Shown here one piece after another: positions 203-9,240 of a stretch of DNA of 44,873 nt (the stretch's first letter is position 1; each line of letters opens with the position of its first letter). Below the pieces are notes generated by a model, which was given only the letters and a program-made list of their open reading frames with translations, was not told the origin of the DNA and did not search any database. Where the stretch lies: positions 1 to 44,873 of the forward strand of contig NZ_JAGJCF010000026.1 of the NCBI RefSeq assembly GCF_017815135.1, read 5' to 3'. The translations under genes and the position numbers were made by a program. The DNA comes from Jiella mangrovi (GTDB lineage: Bacteria > Pseudomonadota > Alphaproteobacteria > Rhizobiales > Rhizobiaceae).

Positions 203-2062
203 TCAAGAGCGCTTCGGCTTGTCGGCGGTCCGGTCGAAGACTTCACGAAGCAGGACGAGCAGCTCTTCCGGCCGGAACGGCTTCAGGAGCACCGGGTAGC
301 CCTGGATCGTGCTTTCGCCTTCCTGGCGCGCGATCGGATGGTCGCTATATCCCGTCATGAGGACGACGGGCGTGCCGGGATGGTGGGCGATGACGAATTT
401 CGCCAGCTCCGGTCCGCCGATGAGCGGCATGACGACGTCGCTGAGCACGAGATCGACCGTCTTGCCGTCCGCGCTCCCAAGGAGGGTCTGGGCCTCCGCC
501 CCGTTCGCGGCCGAAAAGACGCGGTAGCCCTTGCGTTCGAGGATCCTGCGAGCGGCCCTCGCGACGGCTTGATCGTCGTCGACCACGAGCACCGTTTCGT
601 TTCCTCGCAGGCGGTCGGGCGGAACGGCGGTCTCGGCCTGATCGAGCAGTTCGCTTTCCGCCCTGGGCAGCAGGATCGAGAAGGTCGTGCCGGCGCCGAC
701 CTTGCTTTCAAAAGAGATATGCCCGCCCATCTGCATGACGATGGCGTAGCTCGTCGCCAGTCCAAGGCCGGTTCCCTGCCCGCGCGCCTTGGTGGTGAAG
801 AAGGGCTCGAAGATGTGGTCTCTTTCGGCCGGGCCGATCCCGCAGCCGTCGTCACTGACCTTGAGGCGGATATAGTCGCCCTTCGGCATGCCTTCCCAAT
901 CCTGGGCGAGGGTGTGGTTCTCCAGCCTGATCGTAAAATGGCCGCCTTTCGGCATCGCGTCGCGTGCATTGACCGCGAGATTCATCAGCACCTGCTCGAG
1001 CTGGTTTCCGTCACCGATCGTCGGCCAGACGCCGTCGTCGATCAAAGAGGTGATCTCGATTTCGATCGGCATCAGGCGGCGCAGCATGGCATGCATGCCG
1101 GTCACGACGTCGGTGACGTTGAAGACCACCTTCTCCACCGGCTGGCGCCGCGAGAATGTCAGCAACTGGCGGGTGAGCGCCTGCGCCCGGGACACGGCAT
1201 CGACGATCTCCGACGCCTCGTCGTGAAACAGCGCAGGCTCCTCCGCGCCCCGGATCAGCTCGGCATAGAGCATCATCACCAGCAGCAGATTGTTGATGTC
1301 GTGGGCAACGCCTCCGGCCAGAAGGCCGAGCGCTTCCATCTTCTGTGTGTGGCGCAACTGATCGGCGAGGCGCTTCTCCTCGGTCACGTCACGCATCGTC
1401 GCAAGAAAGGCTGGCCGGTAATCCCATGTGCACTCGGCAACACGAAGCTCGACCGAGCGCCGGCCCCCGGGCCGCAGGATCTCCAGATCCGAGACCCGGC
1501 CGACCTCGACGGCGAAATCGATCAGCTCGCCGAGGAAATCGTCCTCGTTGCGGCCGAGCAGCTGGCGGGCCGCTGGGTTGAGAAACTGGACGCGCCCCAA
1601 CGGGTCGGTGACCACCACTGCGTCCGGCATCACCGTGACGAGGCTGCGGAACTGATCGTGCTGCCGCTCCGCGCTGGCCAGATCCAGCATGGAGCGGACG
1701 CTCTGTTCCAGATGCTGGGAGGGCGAGTCATCCTTGGCGACAATGCCGAGGACACCGGCCTTGCGCGCCAGTTTCGCAACTTCCATTCCCGACGTCGCGC
1801 CGGCGAAGATGACGATCGGTGTCTTGGACGAGACGGGCAGCAGGCGGTCCAGGGTCGCCTCGCCCGTCGTATCCGGCAGGTTGAGATCGAGGATGATGCC
1901 GTCGAACGTCGTGCGGCTGAGAGCCTTTATGGCGGTGTTCAGGGTCTCGACGCTCTCGACGTTGATCTCGATGTCGAGCATGCCGCCGATCCACTCGCGC
2001 GCGAGATCCGCGTCGCCAGGGTTGTCTTCGACCAGCAGCAATCGAAAGGCTTTGGACTGCAC
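203..2062 (-). CDS. Hybrid sensor histidine kinase (REC-PAS-HisKA-HATPase-REC) of the kai operon
   Basis: A 619-residue soluble kinase with no membrane segments. The N-terminal receiver (about 5-125) has acid pair E12/D13 and acceptor D59. A PAS domain (about 140-230) is followed by the dimerisation helix with phospho-acceptor H254 in a VAHDINN motif. The HATPase domain (about 350-468) carries N-box NLAVNARD, DDGCGIG and GTGLGLA. The C-terminal receiver (about 488-612) has acceptor D542 and K594. The start is GTG at 2062, preceded by a GAGGTGG ribosome site; kaiC ends 11 bases upstream, so the gene closes the kai operon. Inference: it is the input or output kinase of the KaiABC-like module, with the N-terminal receiver taking phosphate or sensing a partner. 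The CheY-like and kinase parts are certain; the link to the clock rests on operon position. Confidence 0.93.
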   Translation of the reverse strand: MQSKAFRLLLVEDNPGDADLAREWIGGMLDIEINVESVETLNTAIKALSRTTFDGIILDLNLPDTTGEATLDRLLPVSSKTPIVIFAGATSGMEVAKLARKAGVLGIVAKDDSPSQHLEQSVRSMLDLASAERQHDQFRSLVTVMPDAVVVTDPLGRVQFLNPAARQLLGRNEDDFLGELIDFAVEVGRVSDLEILRPGGRRSVELRVAECTWDYRPAFLATMRDVTEEKRLADQLRHTQKMEALGLLAGGVAHDINNLLLVMMLYAELIRGAEEPALFHDEASEIVDAVSRAQALTRQLLTFSRRQPVEKVVFNVTDVVTGMHAMLRRLMPIEIEITSLIDDGVWPTIGDGNQLEQVLMNLAVNARDAMPKGGHFTIRLENHTLAQDWEGMPKGDYIRLKVSDDGCGIGPAERDHIFEPFFTTKARGQGTGLGLATSYAIVMQMGGHISFESKVGAGTTFSILLPRAESELLDQAETAVPPDRLRGNETVLVVDDDQAVARAARRILERKGYRVFSAANGAEAQTLLGSADGKTVDLVLSDVVMPLIGGPELAKFVIAHHPGTPVVLMTGYSDHPIARQEGESTIQGYPVLLKPFRPEELLVLLREVFDRTADKPKRS

Positions 2063-2073
2063 GCGTCACCACC

Positions 2074-3618
2074 TCAAATCTTTGGCGGCGGCGGCGGCGG
2101 CGTCTCGGGGCTGAACATCTCAGCGAGATGCTCGCGTTCACGAGTGAACATATAGGTGGGCGTTCCGGTCATGATCCCGTGAATGCCGCGGAAGGGGGCG
2201 CCGATATGCATCCCCTGTCCGTCGATGTTGTATTCGCGAATATCCTTCTGATGCTGGGTTCCGCGCATCTTCAGGATCATCAGCCCGCGGCGCATCTCGC
2301 CGTGCAACTCGACATAGCGCAACAGGAGAATGGTGTCGGTCACCGTCGAGATGTGCGTCTCGGTGATGGACTGCCCGCCCATGAGCATCGCCGTCGTGTC
2401 GGTGATCAGCCCGGTGATCTCCAGGTATTTGACGTAGCTCGTGAAGCCGATGACGAATTCGCGGAAAGACCGCCGGGTTCCAGCCTTCTCGAAGGCGGAG
2501 AGGCTGTCGACGGCGATCCGCGCGGGTTTGAAGGCGTCGATCTCGCGCCGCATCTGCAGCTGATGGTCTTCAAGACCCATGATGTCCGGATAACGGCAGA
2601 CGATCCGCAACAGGCCGGATTTTTCGGCCCCTTCGAAATCGATGCCCCAGGAATTGGCGTTGCGCGTCAGCTGCTCGCGGCTTTCTTCCGAGGCAAAGAG
2701 GATCGCGCGCTCGCCCGCCTGGATCGCCGCATTGATGTAGTGAGCGACCGTCAGGGTCTTGCCGGTGCCGGTGGCGCCGCTGACGAGGATGATGGAGTCG
2801 CGGTACATGCCGCCGCCGCACATGCGGTCGAGTTCCTCGATGCCGGAGGAGACGCGCTTGTTCGACGAGCCCTGTTTCAGCTCGATCGCCGAGAGCGGCA
2901 GGATGCTGACGCCCTCGTCGGCATCGACGGTGAAGGTGTATTCTCCCTTCTGGTGCATGCCGCCGCGAAACTTGAGGATCTCGATCGTCCGGCGGCGCTT
3001 TTCCTGATCGAGCCGATTGCGCAAAATGACGACGTTGTCGGCGACGAACTCCTCGACACCGAAGCGTCCGACGGCCCCGTCGTCGTCGAGGCGCTCGAGG
3101 GTCATGAGGGTGGTGACGCCGAGTTTCCTGAGGCCAGCGCCGATCCGATGCAATTCGCGGCGCACGAGGTTGGGGTCGGTGAATTGCGGGAACAGGGCGC
3201 CGATGGCATCGAGGATGACGCGTTTTGCGTTGACCTCCCGGACCGCATGTTCGATCCGCGCCATCAGTCCCGACAGGTCGAAAGCGCCGCTCTCGATCTG
3301 AACGTCCCCTGGTTCGGGGGTGGCATCAACGATGGCGAGCCGCTTTTTCTCGACCTCTCCCGCAAGATCCCAGCCGAAGGAACGAACGTTGTGGATCAGG
3401 TCCTCGGGGCTTTCCTCGAAGGTCACGAAGACGCCGGTTTCATCATATTTGCGCAAGCCCATCACCAGAAACTGCAGCGCAAGAATCGTCTTTCCGCTTC
3501 CCGCGGTCCCGGCCACGACGGCGGTGCGATTCCTCGGCAGCCCGCCATTGGTGACCTGGTCGAAGCCAGGGATCCCGGTGGGCATGCGCTCTATCTGCCA
3601 GTCGGTGACGTCCGCCAT
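2074..3618 (-). CDS. kaiC: Circadian clock ATPase/kinase KaiC
   Basis: A two-domain RecA-like ATPase of 514 residues, close to the 519 of cyanobacterial KaiC. CI has Walker A GTAGSGKT at 37-44 and the catalytic glutamate pair at 68-69. CII has Walker A GATGTGKT at 281-288 and its glutamate pair at 311-312. The CII phosphorylation segment THISTVTDT is intact: T419, S424 and T425 match the T426, S431 and T432 sites of Synechococcus KaiC, so autokinase and autophosphatase cycling looks possible. The C-terminal A-loop/tail region (about 484-514) is present but diverged and ends in a run of six prolines. There is no long coiled-coil extension. An ATG at 3618 overlaps the kaiB stop by one base; a GTG one codon earlier is the alternative start. 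Translationally coupled to kaiB. Confidence 0.96.
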   Translation of the reverse strand: MADVTDWQIERMPTGIPGFDQVTNGGLPRNRTAVVAGTAGSGKTILALQFLVMGLRKYDETGVFVTFEESPEDLIHNVRSFGWDLAGEVEKKRLAIVDATPEPGDVQIESGAFDLSGLMARIEHAVREVNAKRVILDAIGALFPQFTDPNLVRRELHRIGAGLRKLGVTTLMTLERLDDDGAVGRFGVEEFVADNVVILRNRLDQEKRRRTIEILKFRGGMHQKGEYTFTVDADEGVSILPLSAIELKQGSSNKRVSSGIEELDRMCGGGMYRDSIILVSGATGTGKTLTVAHYINAAIQAGERAILFASEESREQLTRNANSWGIDFEGAEKSGLLRIVCRYPDIMGLEDHQLQMRREIDAFKPARIAVDSLSAFEKAGTRRSFREFVIGFTSYVKYLEITGLITDTTAMLMGGQSITETHISTVTDTILLLRYVELHGEMRRGLMILKMRGTQHQKDIREYNIDGQGMHIGAPFRGIHGIMTGTPTYMFTREREHLAEMFSPETPPPPPPKI

Positions 3619-3926
3619 CACTCTTTTCCTGTTTGAATCGATGCGTTTTCGTGATGAGTTGAATAGACGTCGAGGCCGAGCAGGACCTTCTCGCGGTCGC
3701 TGAGGTCGCCGATGATCTTGCGAACCGGTTCGGGCAGTTTGCGCACCAGTGTCGGCGTCGCGAGGATCTTTTCGATATCGGCAAGACCGGGATTTTCAAG
3801 AACGTCGATGATCTCGACCTCATAGCGCCCCGCGAGTTCCGTCTCGCAGATCGATCGGAGATTATCGAGCGCCCGTATGGAGTGCGGCGTGCGGCCGGTG
3901 ATGAACAAGCGCAGTCGATAGATCAT
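3618..3926 (-). CDS. kaiB: Circadian clock protein KaiB
   Basis: A 102-residue protein of the fold-switching, thioredoxin-like KaiB family, usual length about 100. The N-terminus matches the family pattern ([19 protein letters not shown]) and the middle carries the diagnostic [22 protein letters not shown] block, the segment that rearranges when KaiB binds the KaiC CI ring. The start ATG at 3926 overlaps the upstream response-regulator stop as ATGA, and the stop overlaps the kaiC start. In the cyanobacterial clock KaiB binds KaiC late in the cycle and sequesters KaiA. Here the adjoining KaiA-like protein could play the sequestered partner, which is inference. Confidence 0.96.
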
Positions 3927-4798
3927 TTCGGACCCCTCGCGCCAAAGCGACGACTACTGCCGGTCCGGTAGTAATCCACAAGCAGGCCCATCATCTCCAG
4001 AGCCAGCAGCCGACCCTCTATGACCGTCGCGCTGGCGCGCTCCGACGGAATGCGGTGGACCGAGCGCTCGAGCGCGGCTACGTGGATATCCAGGAGGTCG
4101 CGAGGACCTCCACCGGCATCGCCGATCGCGGTGGAGATCCGGCCCATGATGTCCTTGGGTTTTTCGCTGTCGCGGGTGAGCCGCTCGATGTATCTGGCAA
4201 GAAGGGTGGTGTAATCTTCGATCATGTCGCCGAAGAACCCCGGATCGCGATCGCGCAGGGCTCCGACGCCGGTCACGGTCGCTGTCACGCTTGTATGCGC
4301 GCCGGACGACGACAAGGCCCGGTAATGGCTGAGAACCGTCTGCATCTCGCGAAGCTGCGTCTCCCTCAGCCGCGCGACCGCATAGCCGATGGTGCGTCGC
4401 AGGCGCAGGGGCTGGAGCTCGTCCTTGGCGAGATAATCCTGCGCACCGGCGTCGATGCATTGGAGCGCGGCATCCTCGTCGGCGATCCCCGTCAGAACGA
4501 CGATCGGCGCTTCCGGCGAAACCGACTGGATCGCCCGAACGGCCTCCACGCCTTGCGCATCGGGCAGCCGCAGGTCGAGAAGAATGACGTCCACCGGCTC
4601 ACTTTCGAGGAGGGCCGACGCCGCCGCCAGCGTCGCGACGTGACGCACCACATAGTCGGTTCCGTCGCCGACGAGACTGAGCATTTCCCCCACGATGTCG
4701 GCATCGGCGGGGTTGTCTTCGACGAGCAGAAGAGAAACGAGAGCCTGATGGCGACTCTTGGCCTCGATCTGCGAGAGTTGTGATTTTATGCTCGTCAT
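3923..4798 (-). CDS. Response regulator with KaiA/RsbU_N-like C-terminal domain
   Basis: A 291-residue protein, first gene of the kai operon. The receiver (about 21-142) is complete: acid pair E27/D28, acceptor D75, T103 and K125. The C-terminal part (about 187-281) is all helical by eye. It resembles both the KaiC-binding C-terminal domain of KaiA (a DIHVAAL segment against EIHMELI, then R-x8-RL-x6-11-Y-YR against the same spacing near the KaiA end) and the N-terminal domain of the phosphatase RsbU ([13 protein letters not shown] against YHQLLSRYIAELT). These family sequences are recalled, not searched. KaiA is otherwise regarded as cyanobacterial, so this is a candidate phospho-gated KaiA analogue or partner-switching adaptor. 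ATG 4798 is chosen with GGAAAG upstream; a GTG lies one codon earlier. It overlaps kaiB by ATGA. Confidence 0.85.
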
Positions 4799-5269: not shown

Positions 5270-5752
5270 ATGCCTCGCATTCTCATCATCGACGATAGAG
5301 CCGACGTAAGGCGGGCGATCGAGGCGATCCTCAAAGCGCGGGGCTACACCAGCCGGTCTGCGGGTGGCGGGCGTGAAGGGCTGGACCTCATGCGCACGCA
5401 TCACTTCGACGCCGTCGTCGTCGACATCTTCATGCCGGATCTCGACGGCATCGCCACCATCCAGTTGATGAAAGCCGACTTTCCCGAGCTTCCGGTCATC
5501 GCCATTTCCGGCCATGCCGTCCAGTTTGCCGCTGAGGGTGGGATCGACTTCCTCAAGATGGCGGTCGAGCACGGCGCGTCGGCCTCGTTGCGCAAACCCT
5601 TCACGCCAGCGCAGTTGATGGATGCCGTGGATTGCGCAATCCATGCGCCGAAGCGCGATGGCAGCACGGGCATGTTGCTTGCTCGCAGTGGCGGGCACCT
5701 GCGCAGCGTGACTCCTTCCGTTATGGCAGGCGGCGCCAGCTCGGCGCATTGA
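5270..5752 (+). CDS. Single-domain CheY-like response regulator
   Basis: A 160-residue protein consisting of one receiver domain (about 1-125) with acid pair D8/D9, acceptor D52, switch residue S80 and K109, plus a 35-residue tail with no recognisable output domain. The start at ATG 5270 is supported by GGAGG six bases upstream; a GTG 28 codons earlier is open but has no ribosome site. It is transcribed divergently from the kai operon across an AT-rich control region, so the two may share regulation. With no DNA-binding output, it probably relays phosphate or binds a partner protein, possibly one of the two neighbouring kinases. Confidence 0.88.
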   Translation: MPRILIIDDRADVRRAIEAILKARGYTSRSAGGGREGLDLMRTHHFDAVVVDIFMPDLDGIATIQLMKADFPELPVIAISGHAVQFAAEGGIDFLKMAVEHGASASLRKPFTPAQLMDAVDCAIHAPKRDGSTGMLLARSGGHLRSVTPSVMAGGASSAH

Positions 5753-5837: not shown

Positions 5838-6275
5838 TTACTGTCGGCTGGGCGGCAATTTCACCACGGTGAACCAGAAATCCTCGACGGCCTGGACGAT
5901 CTGCTGGAACGCCTCGAGCCCCACGGGCTTGGTGACGTAGCAGTTGGCGCCCAGCGCATAGCTCTCGACGATGTCGCGCTCCGCCTCCGAAGACGTCAGG
6001 ATGACGACCGGGATTGAGCGCAACCTCTCGTCCCCCCTGATGTCGGCAAGCAGTTCCCGCCCGCCCTTGCGGGGCAGGTTGAGATCCAGAAGCATCAGAT
6101 CGGGTATCGTCGCGTCGCTGTCTTTTGTTTCCCCACGAAGCATGGCGAGAGCCTCGACACCGTCCCTTGCGACCGACAGCTCGATCTTGAGCTTGCTCAT
6201 GTCGAAGGTTTCGATCGTCAGATCGGCGTCGGCCGGGTTGTCCTCCACGAGAAGGACCTTGATGGGGGCGGTCAT
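5838..6275 (-). CDS. Rcp1-like response regulator
   Basis: A 145-residue single receiver protein of the kind paired with phytochrome-like kinases (cyanobacterial Rcp1). The acid pair is E11/D12, the acceptor D64, the switch T94 and the lysine K116. The family-typical insertion between beta-2 and the acceptor strand (LRGETKDSDATIPDLMLLDL) is present. Its ATG overlaps the stop of the upstream histidine kinase as ATGA, so the two proteins are translationally coupled and are very probably a cognate pair. No output domain, so the output partner is unknown. Confidence 0.92.
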   Translation of the reverse strand: MTAPIKVLLVEDNPADADLTIETFDMSKLKIELSVARDGVEALAMLRGETKDSDATIPDLMLLDLNLPRKGGRELLADIRGDERLRSIPVVILTSSEAERDIVESYALGANCYVTKPVGLEAFQQIVQAVEDFWFTVVKLPPSRQ

Positions 6276-8626
6276 GAAAGCCTCTCGGTCATCTTGGGAA
6301 ACGAAATGTAGAACGTTGTCCCGGCACCGGGTTGGGAATCGAACCAGATCCGCCCGCCATGGCGCTCGACGATCTTCTTGGCGACTGCAAGGCCGATCCC
6401 GCTGCCCGCGTAGCGCTCACGCTCGTGCAGCCTCTGAAACATCTGGAAGATGCGCTCGCCATATTGCGGATCGATCCCGATGCCGTTGTCTGCGACGGAA
6501 AAGAGCCAGTCCTCGTCGTTCTGCTCGGCCCTGATCTCGACCAGCGGCGGCGCGTCGGAGCGGAACTTCACCGCATTGCCGATCAGGTTCTGGAACAACT
6601 GGCTGAGCTGACTGCGGTCTCCTTCCACGGCGGGAAGTTCACCGACCTTCACCGTCGCGTTCGTCTCTCGAAGCGTTTGATCAAGGTCGAGGACGACCGC
6701 ATCGACGATGGCGCGTGTCTCGACAGGCACGAGCGGCGCGGCCTTGGTGCCGATACGCGAAAAGGACAGGAGATCGTTGATCAGGAGCTTCATGCGCTTG
6801 GCCCCGTCGACGGCATAGGCGATGTACTTGTCGGCGCGTTCGTCCAGCTGCCCCTTGTATCGCTGCGCGAGAAGCTCGGTGTAGCTTGCCACCATCCGCA
6901 GCGGTTCCTGCAGATCGTGGGCGGCGACATAGGCGAACTGTTCCAGCTCGGCGTTCGAGCGCTTGAGACCCTCGGTCTGGGCGGCGGCCTCGGCGTCGGC
7001 CCGTTTGCGATCGGAGATGTCGCGTGCGATCTTCGAGGCACCGATCAGCCTGCCGTCGATGTCGCGCACCGGCGAAATGTTCAAGGAGACATCGACCGGC
7101 GTCCCGTCCTTCTTGACCCGCACGGTCTCGAAGAGATGGATCTTCTCGCCGTGACGGACCTTGTCCAGAAAATCGTCCCTCTCGTCCTTGCGATCCGCCG
7201 GAATGATCTTGTCGGTATCGTTTCCGACCATCTCGGCTGCGCTGTAGCCGTAAAGGCGCTCCGCCGCCTGATTCCAGGTCTGTATGCGGCCCTTAAGATC
7301 GAGGATGAAGATCGCATCCTGCGACGTCTCGACCGCCGCGCTCAAGAGCCGCTCGCGCTGCGTCTTGTCGCGAAGTTCGGCGTTGATCCGCTGCTGCTCG
7401 GCGAGCGCCCGGGTCAGCGAAGAGCGCTTTTCTTCCACCTCGCTCGCCATGCTTTCGAAGGCGCGGGCGAGCGTCCCGATCTCGCCGCCGGCCTTTGTCG
7501 GCAGTTTCGGCCGCTCGCCCCGCTCCATCGCCTCGGCGCCCCGCGTCATCGCATGGATTGGCCGCACGAGGCCCCGCGCGACCAGGAGCGCAAGCGCGAT
7601 GGCGCAGACGGCAGCGATGATGGCACCGAGAAGGATCGATCTCTGGGGTGCGTCGGCGATGGACGTCAACACATCGTAGGGTACGGCTTCGACAACGAAG
7701 ATCGGCTCGGACCCGGCCAGAACCATCGGTTGGAAGACGACGCCGAACGTGTCGCCACTCCGATCCGTGGTGACCTCACGGACCTCGCGGCGCTGGGCGA
7801 CGGCGGTGCCAAGGGCGGGAAACACATCGCCGATGCGGGCCGACCCGCCGCGTTGAAACGCAAAATCGTCCCTGCCGTCGGGCGAGAAAAGGATCTGCCC
7901 GGCTTCGTTCGCCACATAGATCGACCGCTCGGGTCCCGTCGCCGCTCGCATCGCGGCGAAAAAGACCCGCAGGTCGATATTGATGATCAGAATGCCGAAG
8001 GGCCGGCCATCAGGCGCGACCACCGGCGTTGCGGCACGAAAGACGGGTTTCAGGGGCGTCTCGATTTCACCCTCTTCTTCGTTGAGTTCGATCGGCGTGA
8101 GGTTGACACGGTTTTTCGATGCCGCGACCGTATCGCGAAAATAGGGGCGACTTCCCTTTCGCTGCAGCGCGGCGTCCTGAACGACGTAAACCCCGTTTCC
8201 CGCCGGTGACCGATTGACGCGGACGATCTCCCGTCCCCCGTCTTCGACGCCGATGAAACGGAACTGAAGATAGCTCGGTTCGACCTGGAGCTGGCGCAGG
8301 AAGAACTGCGCCAGCCTTGCGCGCCAGACGTCGATCGCAATGCCGCCTTCCGGATCGACACCGCCGTTACCGGCAGCCCTGACGATCCCGGCGACGGCGC
8401 TGAGGGCGGTCGCGGAAAGGACGTCGTTCGCCGCTGTGTCGGCGATTTCCGCAATGGGATCGGAGACAAGGCGCAGATGGCGTTCGATCTGCTCCAGCGC
8501 GCTCGGCACGACGAGCGCGCGCAAAGTGTAGAAGCTCAAGGTTCCAACGACGGTAGCCGTCGCGACGACCAGCACGGCATTCGCCAAAGCGAGCCTGCCC
8601 CACAGGCCCATCAGCGTCTCCCTCAT
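6272..8626 (-). CDS. Membrane sensor histidine kinase (Cache-HAMP-PAS-HisKA-HATPase)
   Basis: From ATG 8626 the protein is 784 residues. TM1 (about 10-36) is followed by a periplasmic double-Cache-like region (about 45-325, with YLQFRFI and ILIINIDLRVFF segments), TM2 (about 331-350), HAMP (about 351-404), PAS (about 427-541), then a phytochrome-type kinase core with H570 in AHDLQEPLR, N-box NLIGNAVKF and GSGIGLA. The reading frame stays open to a TTG at 8773, but that would place 49 polar residues before TM1, so 8626 is preferred (weak GAGCGG site). The kinase core is the class that signals to Rcp1-like receivers, and the next gene encodes exactly that. The ligand cannot be told from sequence; Cache domains commonly bind small organic molecules. 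Confidence 0.9.
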   Translation of the reverse strand: MRETLMGLWGRLALANAVLVVATATVVGTLSFYTLRALVVPSALEQIERHLRLVSDPIAEIADTAANDVLSATALSAVAGIVRAAGNGGVDPEGGIAIDVWRARLAQFFLRQLQVEPSYLQFRFIGVEDGGREIVRVNRSPAGNGVYVVQDAALQRKGSRPYFRDTVAASKNRVNLTPIELNEEEGEIETPLKPVFRAATPVVAPDGRPFGILIINIDLRVFFAAMRAATGPERSIYVANEAGQILFSPDGRDDFAFQRGGSARIGDVFPALGTAVAQRREVREVTTDRSGDTFGVVFQPMVLAGSEPIFVVEAVPYDVLTSIADAPQRSILLGAIIAAVCAIALALLVARGLVRPIHAMTRGAEAMERGERPKLPTKAGGEIGTLARAFESMASEVEEKRSSLTRALAEQQRINAELRDKTQRERLLSAAVETSQDAIFILDLKGRIQTWNQAAERLYGYSAAEMVGNDTDKIIPADRKDERDDFLDKVRHGEKIHLFETVRVKKDGTPVDVSLNISPVRDIDGRLIGASKIARDISDRKRADAEAAAQTEGLKRSNAELEQFAYVAAHDLQEPLRMVASYTELLAQRYKGQLDERADKYIAYAVDGAKRMKLLINDLLSFSRIGTKAAPLVPVETRAIVDAVVLDLDQTLRETNATVKVGELPAVEGDRSQLSQLFQNLIGNAVKFRSDAPPLVEIRAEQNDEDWLFSVADNGIGIDPQYGERIFQMFQRLHERERYAGSGIGLAVAKKIVERHGGRIWFDSQPGAGTTFYISFPKMTERLS

Positions 8627-9240
8627 ATCCGCTCGGCCAGCTCGGACCGCTCTTTTCACAGCCCAAGGCCAGCCAAGCGATCCCGTCCGGCCCTCGATAT
8701 CGCGCAAGCCCGCCGTATCGAGGCGCTGGCGAACGACACCAAGCGTCGGTGACCGTTCGGCATCGCGGTGCAATCAGGACACCAGTTTCCATCGCAATAC
8801 AACCGATAGCGACTGATTGTCAGTCTGTCAGACCGTTTTGCGGGGTTTGGGCGAGACGCCCGGTGACCGGCGCAGTCTCAAGCAGGCGTTTAGGCCTGCT
8901 CGAGGCTCTGCGTGCCGGGCCGTCCTTCGCGCTTCCTTTTCGAAGATCGGTCTGCGGCCGGGGGGATGAGCACCGCCTTCGCGCGGACTTCGGGTCGTCG
9001 CGGCGGGGAAGCCGCAGTCTCGCCGGGCCGGGCCGCGACGGCCTGCAGCATCGGAGAGATCGAGCGGTCCCTGCGCGCCCGAGCGGACGCAGCGGCGCTC
9101 CGGAACAAAGCTTCTTTGCATTTTCATCTAGTCTTGTATAAGATATATATTATGATTTTTGAGCGACCGGGAAATCGAATGGGGCGAGGGCTCGAGGGCC
9201 CGATGGCGCTCGCGATGAGCCTTCGGGCGGCGCTTTTGGG
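8627..9240. other. Intergenic region, mostly featureless
   Basis: About 600 bases between the sensor kinase (minus) and the GntR gene (plus); it must hold promoters for both. Visible structures are a hairpin (AGCAGGC 8881-8887 pairing with GCCTGCT 8894-8900) and a short AT-rich stretch at 9129-9160 with a candidate operator. I see no convincing gene: open frames here lack ribosome sites and family resemblance. Confidence 0.5.
9132..9143. promoter_or_regulatory. Candidate GntR operator/promoter element
   Basis: TCTT-GTAT-AAGA, symmetric about its centre, inside a TATA-rich stretch about 100 bases before the gntR start. HutC-type GntR proteins often bind GTAT-containing palindromes near their own promoter. 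Assignment to this regulator is by position only. Confidence 0.35.

Follow-up and report, generated by a model that had tools for sequence, protein, structure and literature searches.

Does the kai operon of the alphaproteobacterium Jiella mangrovi encode a KaiA of its own, and could this KaiA be addressed by two-component phosphorylation? The question is raised by a contig of 44,873 nucleotides (NZ_JAGJCF010000026.1; the window, taken at its full length), in which a minus-strand gene (3923..4798, 291 residues from its ATG; the first-pass annotation of this DNA had given the position and no strand) encodes a receiver domain followed by a helical domain and sits directly upstream of kaiB and kaiC, as for the KaiA3 type. 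It overlaps the ATG of kaiB by four bases (3923-3926) and the kaiB and kaiC frames also overlap by four (3618-3621), as had been noted. From its reading frame and its profile and structure matches, this gene belongs to the response-regulator-type KaiA (KaiA3-like), a kind that is already known. What is added here is a divergent lineage whose KaiC falls outside the sampled KaiC3-like clade, a census of the receiver residues, the frequent presence upstream of a kinase and of a single-domain response regulator, which we take to be Rcp-like, and a distinctive ending of the KaiC tail. These observations bear on whether ordinary two-component phosphorylation sets any Kai clock, a question open to a test in which all purified proteins come from a single locus, since a candidate kinase, an intact receiver, KaiB and KaiC are gathered in one cluster.

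The first-pass annotation considered KaiA to be cyanobacterial. A BLAST survey reported KaiA in cyanobacteria only (Schmelling et al., 2017; PMC5520375), and cyanobacterial KaiA proteins with other N-terminal domains, REC included, were later described (Dvornyk and Mei, 2021; PMC8113500). That premise is out of date, as Koebler et al. (2024; PMC11372060), who defined KaiA3 and placed its gene just before kaiB, reported orthologues in five genera outside cyanobacteria. According to the same paper, KaiA3 of Synechocystis promotes KaiC3 phosphorylation, which oscillates in vitro when KaiB3 is present as well, and the cognate kinase for KaiA3 is not yet identified. In the proteobacterium R. rubrum, Rru_A3293 is described as a KaiA3 that precedes kaiB and kaiC, with a PAS histidine kinase upstream (PMC10931921); the arrangement resembles that of the window, by description and not by sequence, and the linkage as such is therefore not new. 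Within the literature covered, outside which fall most subscription papers and all preprints, we found neither a published description of the Jiella operon nor a census of the breadth of the kinase linkage.

The helical C-terminal domain that had been suspected is present in the AlphaFold2 model of the window protein, with helices at residues 186-209, 215-227, 232-247 and 252-284, and the four-helix region (residues 186-284; 3947..4243, minus strand) is KaiA-like by profile and fold matches. On the single protein, the part after the receiver matched no Pfam family at E ≤ 1, and neither PF07688 (canonical KaiA, for which a canonical KaiA used as control scores 1e-61) nor PF08673 (RsbU_N) gave a match at E ≤ 1. 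One Pfam match besides the receiver was set aside as chance. The best 25 of 98 NCBIfam matches were receiver families, one CheB model extending to residue 237, and the best 60 of 95 phmmer matches to PDB fell on the receiver region; in a plasmid search with the whole protein, none of 248 records reached 80% coverage and the best 30 matched the receiver part.

The relationship became visible with profiles of the family. Profile A4 was built from the C-termini of nine relatives, all of them encoded in non-cyanobacterial kai loci. Of 15 genomes searched with it, nine had a match, namely five sources of its own rows and four cyanobacteria, in which it found proteins of Synechocystis salina, Microcystis, Crocosphaera watsonii and Hydrococcus (E 4.3e-34 to 4.7e-36); at E ≤ 0.01 it found none in Geminocystis, Trichormus and Phormidesmis, nor in three genomes with other Kai types. 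The four cyanobacterial proteins have 288-306 residues, lie directly before kaiB and represent here KaiA3 (Sll0485) of Synechocystis sp. PCC 6803, with which the window protein shares the combination of a receiver and a KaiA-like C-terminal domain and the gene position just before kaiB. Aligned with hhalign, the C-terminal domains of the family and of cyanobacterial KaiA3 matched with a probability of 99.9% (E 5.6e-33). When A4 was compared with PDB sequences, the best eight of the 16 listed were all KaiA chains (E 0.0011-0.019), the ninth being unrelated (0.083), and with profile A6, which consists of A4, the four cyanobacterial KaiA3 and two more members, KaiA improved to E 7.5e-5.

It had been proposed that this domain recalls both KaiA-C and RsbU_N, and these comparisons uphold the first likeness and leave the second at a distance. 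A fold of the KaiA-C type is also attributed to RsbU_N (PMC11372060), A6 touches RsbU at E 0.38-0.72, and one cyanobacterial KaiA3 has a sub-threshold RsbU_N match at 0.1, so the protein might be thought a partner-switch regulator whose helical domain takes no part in activating KaiC and instead has an RsbT-like kinase or a phosphatase as its partner. We consider this very improbable, as KaiA stands far ahead of RsbU (7.5e-5 vs 0.38), kaiB adjoins 39 of the 42 family genes, and no RsbU, RsbT, RsbS or PP2C phosphatase appears among the Pfam matches listed for the seven proteins of the Kai region that were scanned (for kaiC, the best 25 of 47 matches). PF07688 and PF08673 missed the single protein, and the family profile ranks KaiA first; sequence profiles, structure (with moderate weight) and gene order all favour KaiA/KaiA3, with RsbU_N a distant second.

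The link to canonical KaiA (PF07688, with the N-terminal PF21714) appears distant but consistent at the level of sequence. In hhalign, A4 reached a probability of 82.8 (E 9.4e-6, 93 columns) against 25 canonical KaiA C-termini (one of 26, L111, having been excluded by pattern), whereas 100 column-shuffled versions reached 3.2 at most; cyanobacterial KaiA3 alone gave 40.9. Of the four cyanobacterial KaiA3, three had sub-threshold matches to PF07688 itself (E 0.01-0.02), and the eight non-cyanobacterial relatives tested had none. Besides the four-helix domain, both groups share the pattern [IVL]-[ED]-[IV]-H ... R-L ... Y-R. The IH, R-RL-Y-YR and YxxLLxRYIxxLT motifs pointed out at first are present and hold among close relatives, with Tyr46, Asp84, His89, Arg113, Tyr127 and Arg128 (domain numbering) invariant in 15 family C-termini, and loosen in a wider set of 40 of the 42 members (the fusion with PAS domains and the truncated protein of G255 were left out), in which the histidine of the IH motif is a tyrosine in 17 and the first tyrosine is Phe, Leu or Met in the same 17. 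Since the 50 rows listed for the full-length model were all receivers or receiver-bearing kinases, a separate model was made of the C-terminal domain by itself; KaiA took the first seven places in its structure comparison, with moderate support, and we count this domain as having the KaiA-C fold.

How general is this arrangement? In a class-level sample the KaiA3-like domain was found in at least 6 of 372 genomes and in a phylum-level sample in at least 21 of 398, the Jiella genome included in both; the counts are lower bounds, as about 10-11 first-look candidates were scored per genome. Among the five other genomes of the class-level sample the domain lies beside kaiB and kaiC in three (G061, G395 and G223), and in the phylum-level sample 24 of 25 places in 20 other genomes adjoin kaiB, the last one ending at a contig end. 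The 39 of 42 family genes that adjoin kaiB come from 40 loci, part of which were fetched through KaiB. As the KaiA3-like gene recurs beside kaiB in relatives, the arrangement is more than chance. A weak candidate (G035, E 0.0055) was taken as a chance match, as there is no Kai gene in its 3.1-kb locus.

The two remaining genomes of the class-level sample, G358 and G255, have neither KaiB nor KaiC at E ≤ 1e-10 (their inclusion in the KaiB-searched set is inferred from the numbering). The first of them carries a kinase, an Rcp-like regulator and a KaiA-C response regulator, with a receiver-GGDEF-EAL protein next in line (L135, 2400-9111), whereas the upstream neighbours of the second are lost to a contig end. 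These loci would suit an independent two-component output module, composed of kinase, Rcp-like regulator and KaiA-C regulator, that meets Kai proteins in some hosts only and has another partner elsewhere. We regard this as unlikely, since nearly all the places of the phylum-level sample adjoin kaiB, and since the branches leading to the two exceptions are very long (1.5 and 2.29); these genes may be remnants or have been put to another use.

Several relatives depart from the simple arrangement. Two KaiA3-like/KaiB/KaiC sets lie close together in L189 (5028-9959), with an incomplete frame for the first kaiC, in L176 (5318-8131 and 12354-15112), and in L192 (9-4506), where the first KaiA3-like gene is outside the stretch. 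In such genomes the second-set KaiC forms a clade of its own (100/100), which a quick tree places beside KaiC1 of cyanobacteria (Shimodaira-Hasegawa-like approximate likelihood ratio support of 81, long branches). In G223, a protein of 522 residues with two PAS domains and a C-terminal KaiA-C domain directly precedes kaiB and kaiC (L030, 4436-7764), and its KaiC is devoid of the S/T phosphosite motif and of the usual tail. Downstream of kaiC in L187 (7016-8640) lie a second, divergent KaiB and, after it, a PAS-GGDEF protein, possibly a sign of cyclic di-GMP output in that group.

The receiver domain of the window protein (about residues 20-130; 4409..4741, minus strand) is complete, in accordance with the first-pass annotation: it matches PF00072 with E 8.4e-21 over residues 24-127, has Asp75 as phosphoacceptor, and keeps the full set Glu27, Asp28, Asp75, Thr103 and Lys125. 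Of 36 non-cyanobacterial members, 34 keep the complete set (acidic pair, aspartate, threonine/serine and lysine); the two that do not are the first copy of Acuticoccus yangtzensis (aspartate to histidine and second acidic residue to glutamine) and an Acetobacteraceae metagenome-assembled genome (MAG; lysine to arginine). None of the four cyanobacterial KaiA3 has the complete set: in three the lysine is shifted by one residue towards the C-terminus, in the fourth it is absent, and Thr, Ala, Met or Ser stands at the threonine/serine position. Canonical KaiA is described as having a pseudo-receiver without the aspartate (PMC11372060), which again differs from the Asp75-containing receiver of the window protein. 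This conservation suggests that the non-cyanobacterial receivers can be phosphorylated. In A. yangtzensis, two KaiA3-like operons occur in one genome (L134, 5591-10031; L038), and the phosphoacceptor that is histidine in the first copy is kept in the second.

Candidate phosphate donors are encoded around the gene. On the minus strand the order is sensor kinase, Rcp-like regulator, KaiA3-like gene, kaiB, kaiC and hybrid kinase. The sensor histidine kinase (6272..8773; Cache-type sensor region, HAMP, PAS, HisKA and HATPase by Pfam; its TTG start was assigned mechanically and the true start is uncertain) precedes the single-domain Rcp-like regulator (5838..6275; PF00072), and the hybrid histidine kinase (203..2062; REC-PAS-HisKA-HATPase-REC by Pfam) has a homologue in the same position in two other loci, L034 (72%) and L035 (61%). 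A second single-domain regulator (5270..5752, plus strand; PF00072), between the Rcp-like and the KaiA3-like genes and in the opposite orientation, has a homologue in Jiella endophytica (69.6% identical). An Rcp-like regulator is found upstream (within 5 kb, same strand) of 29 of 38 non-cyanobacterial family genes, one such gene being counted for both family genes of L189, and a kinase like the upstream one of the window in 23 of 38; each is found in 0 of 4 cyanobacterial loci, unlike in the window, with less than 3 kb upstream in view in two of these. In L177 (8416-10704), the N-terminal stretch of a hybrid kinase downstream of kaiC is 45% identical to residues 19-153 of the window protein, so that its receiver may be a paralogue of that of the regulator or share a kinase with it.

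An intact receiver with histidine kinases on both sides would also fit a competitor, an inhibitor or a clock output, of which CikA and SasA are the models, that binds KaiC or KaiB and through which phosphorylation flows out of the KaiC cycle. We give this little credence, as the likeness of the C-terminal domain is to the part of KaiA that activates KaiC, and the nearest studied relative, KaiA3, is reported to promote KaiC3 phosphorylation (PMC11372060).

In a tree of 41 KaiA3-like C-termini (L184 was left out) and 15 of the 25 canonical KaiA, the family forms a clade separate from canonical KaiA at 100/100. The window sequence groups with Jiella endophytica (96/85) and, at 66/98 only, with Aurantimonas, Acuticoccus and a Rubrivivax MAG, whereas the cyanobacterial KaiA3 lie inside a mostly proteobacterial clade of 26 rows without the Jiella lineage (93/72, the bootstrap being unsettled and several branches long). 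The Jiella lineage of the KaiC tree (94/85) likewise falls outside the KaiC1 clade (100/100) and the KaiC3-like clade (100/99); five KaiC rows (L030, L031, L039, L047 and L148) were excluded as long-branched or degenerate, and the fused reading frame L037 was entered whole, its surplus columns being dropped by the program. Joining the Jiella KaiC lineage to either clade is not rejected by the approximately unbiased test (p-AU 0.12 both), and holding it with the KaiC3-like clade costs 3.17 log-likelihood units. Both the C-terminal domain and the KaiC of the window are thus outside the clades holding cyanobacterial KaiA3 and KaiC3, with an unsettled placement, and for this reason we name the protein a response-regulator-type KaiA, KaiA3-like, and not a strict KaiA3 orthologue.

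The proposed target of this protein is encoded next to it. The kaiC gene (2074..3621, minus strand; GTG start at 3621; 515 residues) encodes both Walker A motifs, the Ser425/Thr426 pair and a tail of 30 residues counted from the conserved GTPT, and scores above the KaiC equivalog cut-offs (PRK09302, 707.6 bits for a cut-off of 408; TIGR02655, 635.0 for 546.25), whereas kaiB (3618..3926, minus strand; 102 residues; PF07689, E 2.2e-27) passes PRK09301 (116.9 bits, cut-off 110) and misses TIGR02654 (112.5, cut-off 145.3). The C-terminal tail of KaiC is the reported binding site of KaiA (PMC4844972). We compared tails in a hand-chosen set of 45 rows from 42 loci, two of the nine KaiC1 rows being the same protein, of which 24 are paired with the KaiA3-like type (23 beside a KaiA3-like gene and KaiC3 of S. 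salina). Of these 24 KaiCs, 23 end in [LVIM]xx[LM]F (LAEMF in the window KaiC), the only miss being copy 2 of A. yangtzensis. None of the 21 other sampled KaiCs has it: nine KaiC1, some from genomes that also have KaiA3, eight KaiC2, three KaiC1/3-like proteins from genomes without a profile-detected KaiA3-like gene, and the one at the PAS-fusion locus. Because the pattern was picked after inspecting the tails and the rows are related, we treat this ending as a hypothesis for the docking site, and it offers a concrete candidate to mutate.

Alongside the observed architecture, family relation, receiver set, gene order and tail correlation, we infer binding, KaiC stimulation, phosphorylation gating and any oscillation. 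In the reading that we hold to be probable, this response-regulator-type KaiA activates the neighbouring KaiC through its tail: the C-terminal four-helix domain would dock on the tail and stimulate autophosphorylation at Ser425/Thr426, KaiB would antagonise the regulator, as reported for KaiA3-KaiB3-KaiC3 of Synechocystis (PMC11372060), and the receiver could be phosphorylated at Asp75 by one or more operon histidine kinases, either without an intermediate or via the Rcp-like regulator, an outside signal thereby setting the strength of KaiC activation. The phosphorylation-gated, three-part oscillator first envisaged is plausible, and the timing mode could equally be that of an hourglass. Far more tentatively, a Pseudomonadota KaiABC lineage outside the sampled KaiC1 and KaiC3-like clades might use a fully phosphorylatable KaiA through which an operon kinase tunes KaiC, the receivers of cyanobacterial KaiA3 and the pseudo-receiver of KaiA having decayed from a phospho-gated ancestor, an idea that we consider possible and rather doubtful.

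An hourglass built from KaiB and KaiC is described for another alphaproteobacterium, Rhodobacter (KaiC2 type; PMC11372060), which the window resembles in having both proteins. KaiC2 differs in its extended C-terminus, of 74-93 residues in all eight sampled (Rhodobacter is not among them) vs 30 in the window KaiC, and seven of the eight KaiC2 genomes have no KaiA3-like gene by profile; the exception, S. salina, has KaiC3 as well.

Jiella mangrovi encodes two reaction-centre proteins of the PufL/PufM family (PF00124), which makes a daily light or oxygen cycle a reasonable setting for the host. Phototrophy was rejected as a correlate of the operon, as PF00124 matches occur in all ten genomes of the genus examined and the KaiA3-like gene in two of those. 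The system is not tied to phototrophy more widely either, since PF00124 matches occur in 3 of the 32 examined genomes outside cyanobacteria that carry the KaiA3-like domain, and the other 29, some of them incomplete, gave none. The Jiella mangrovi genome also encodes a second, divergent two-domain KaiC-like ATPase on another contig (C23:305615-306994), 24% identical to the KaiC of the window.
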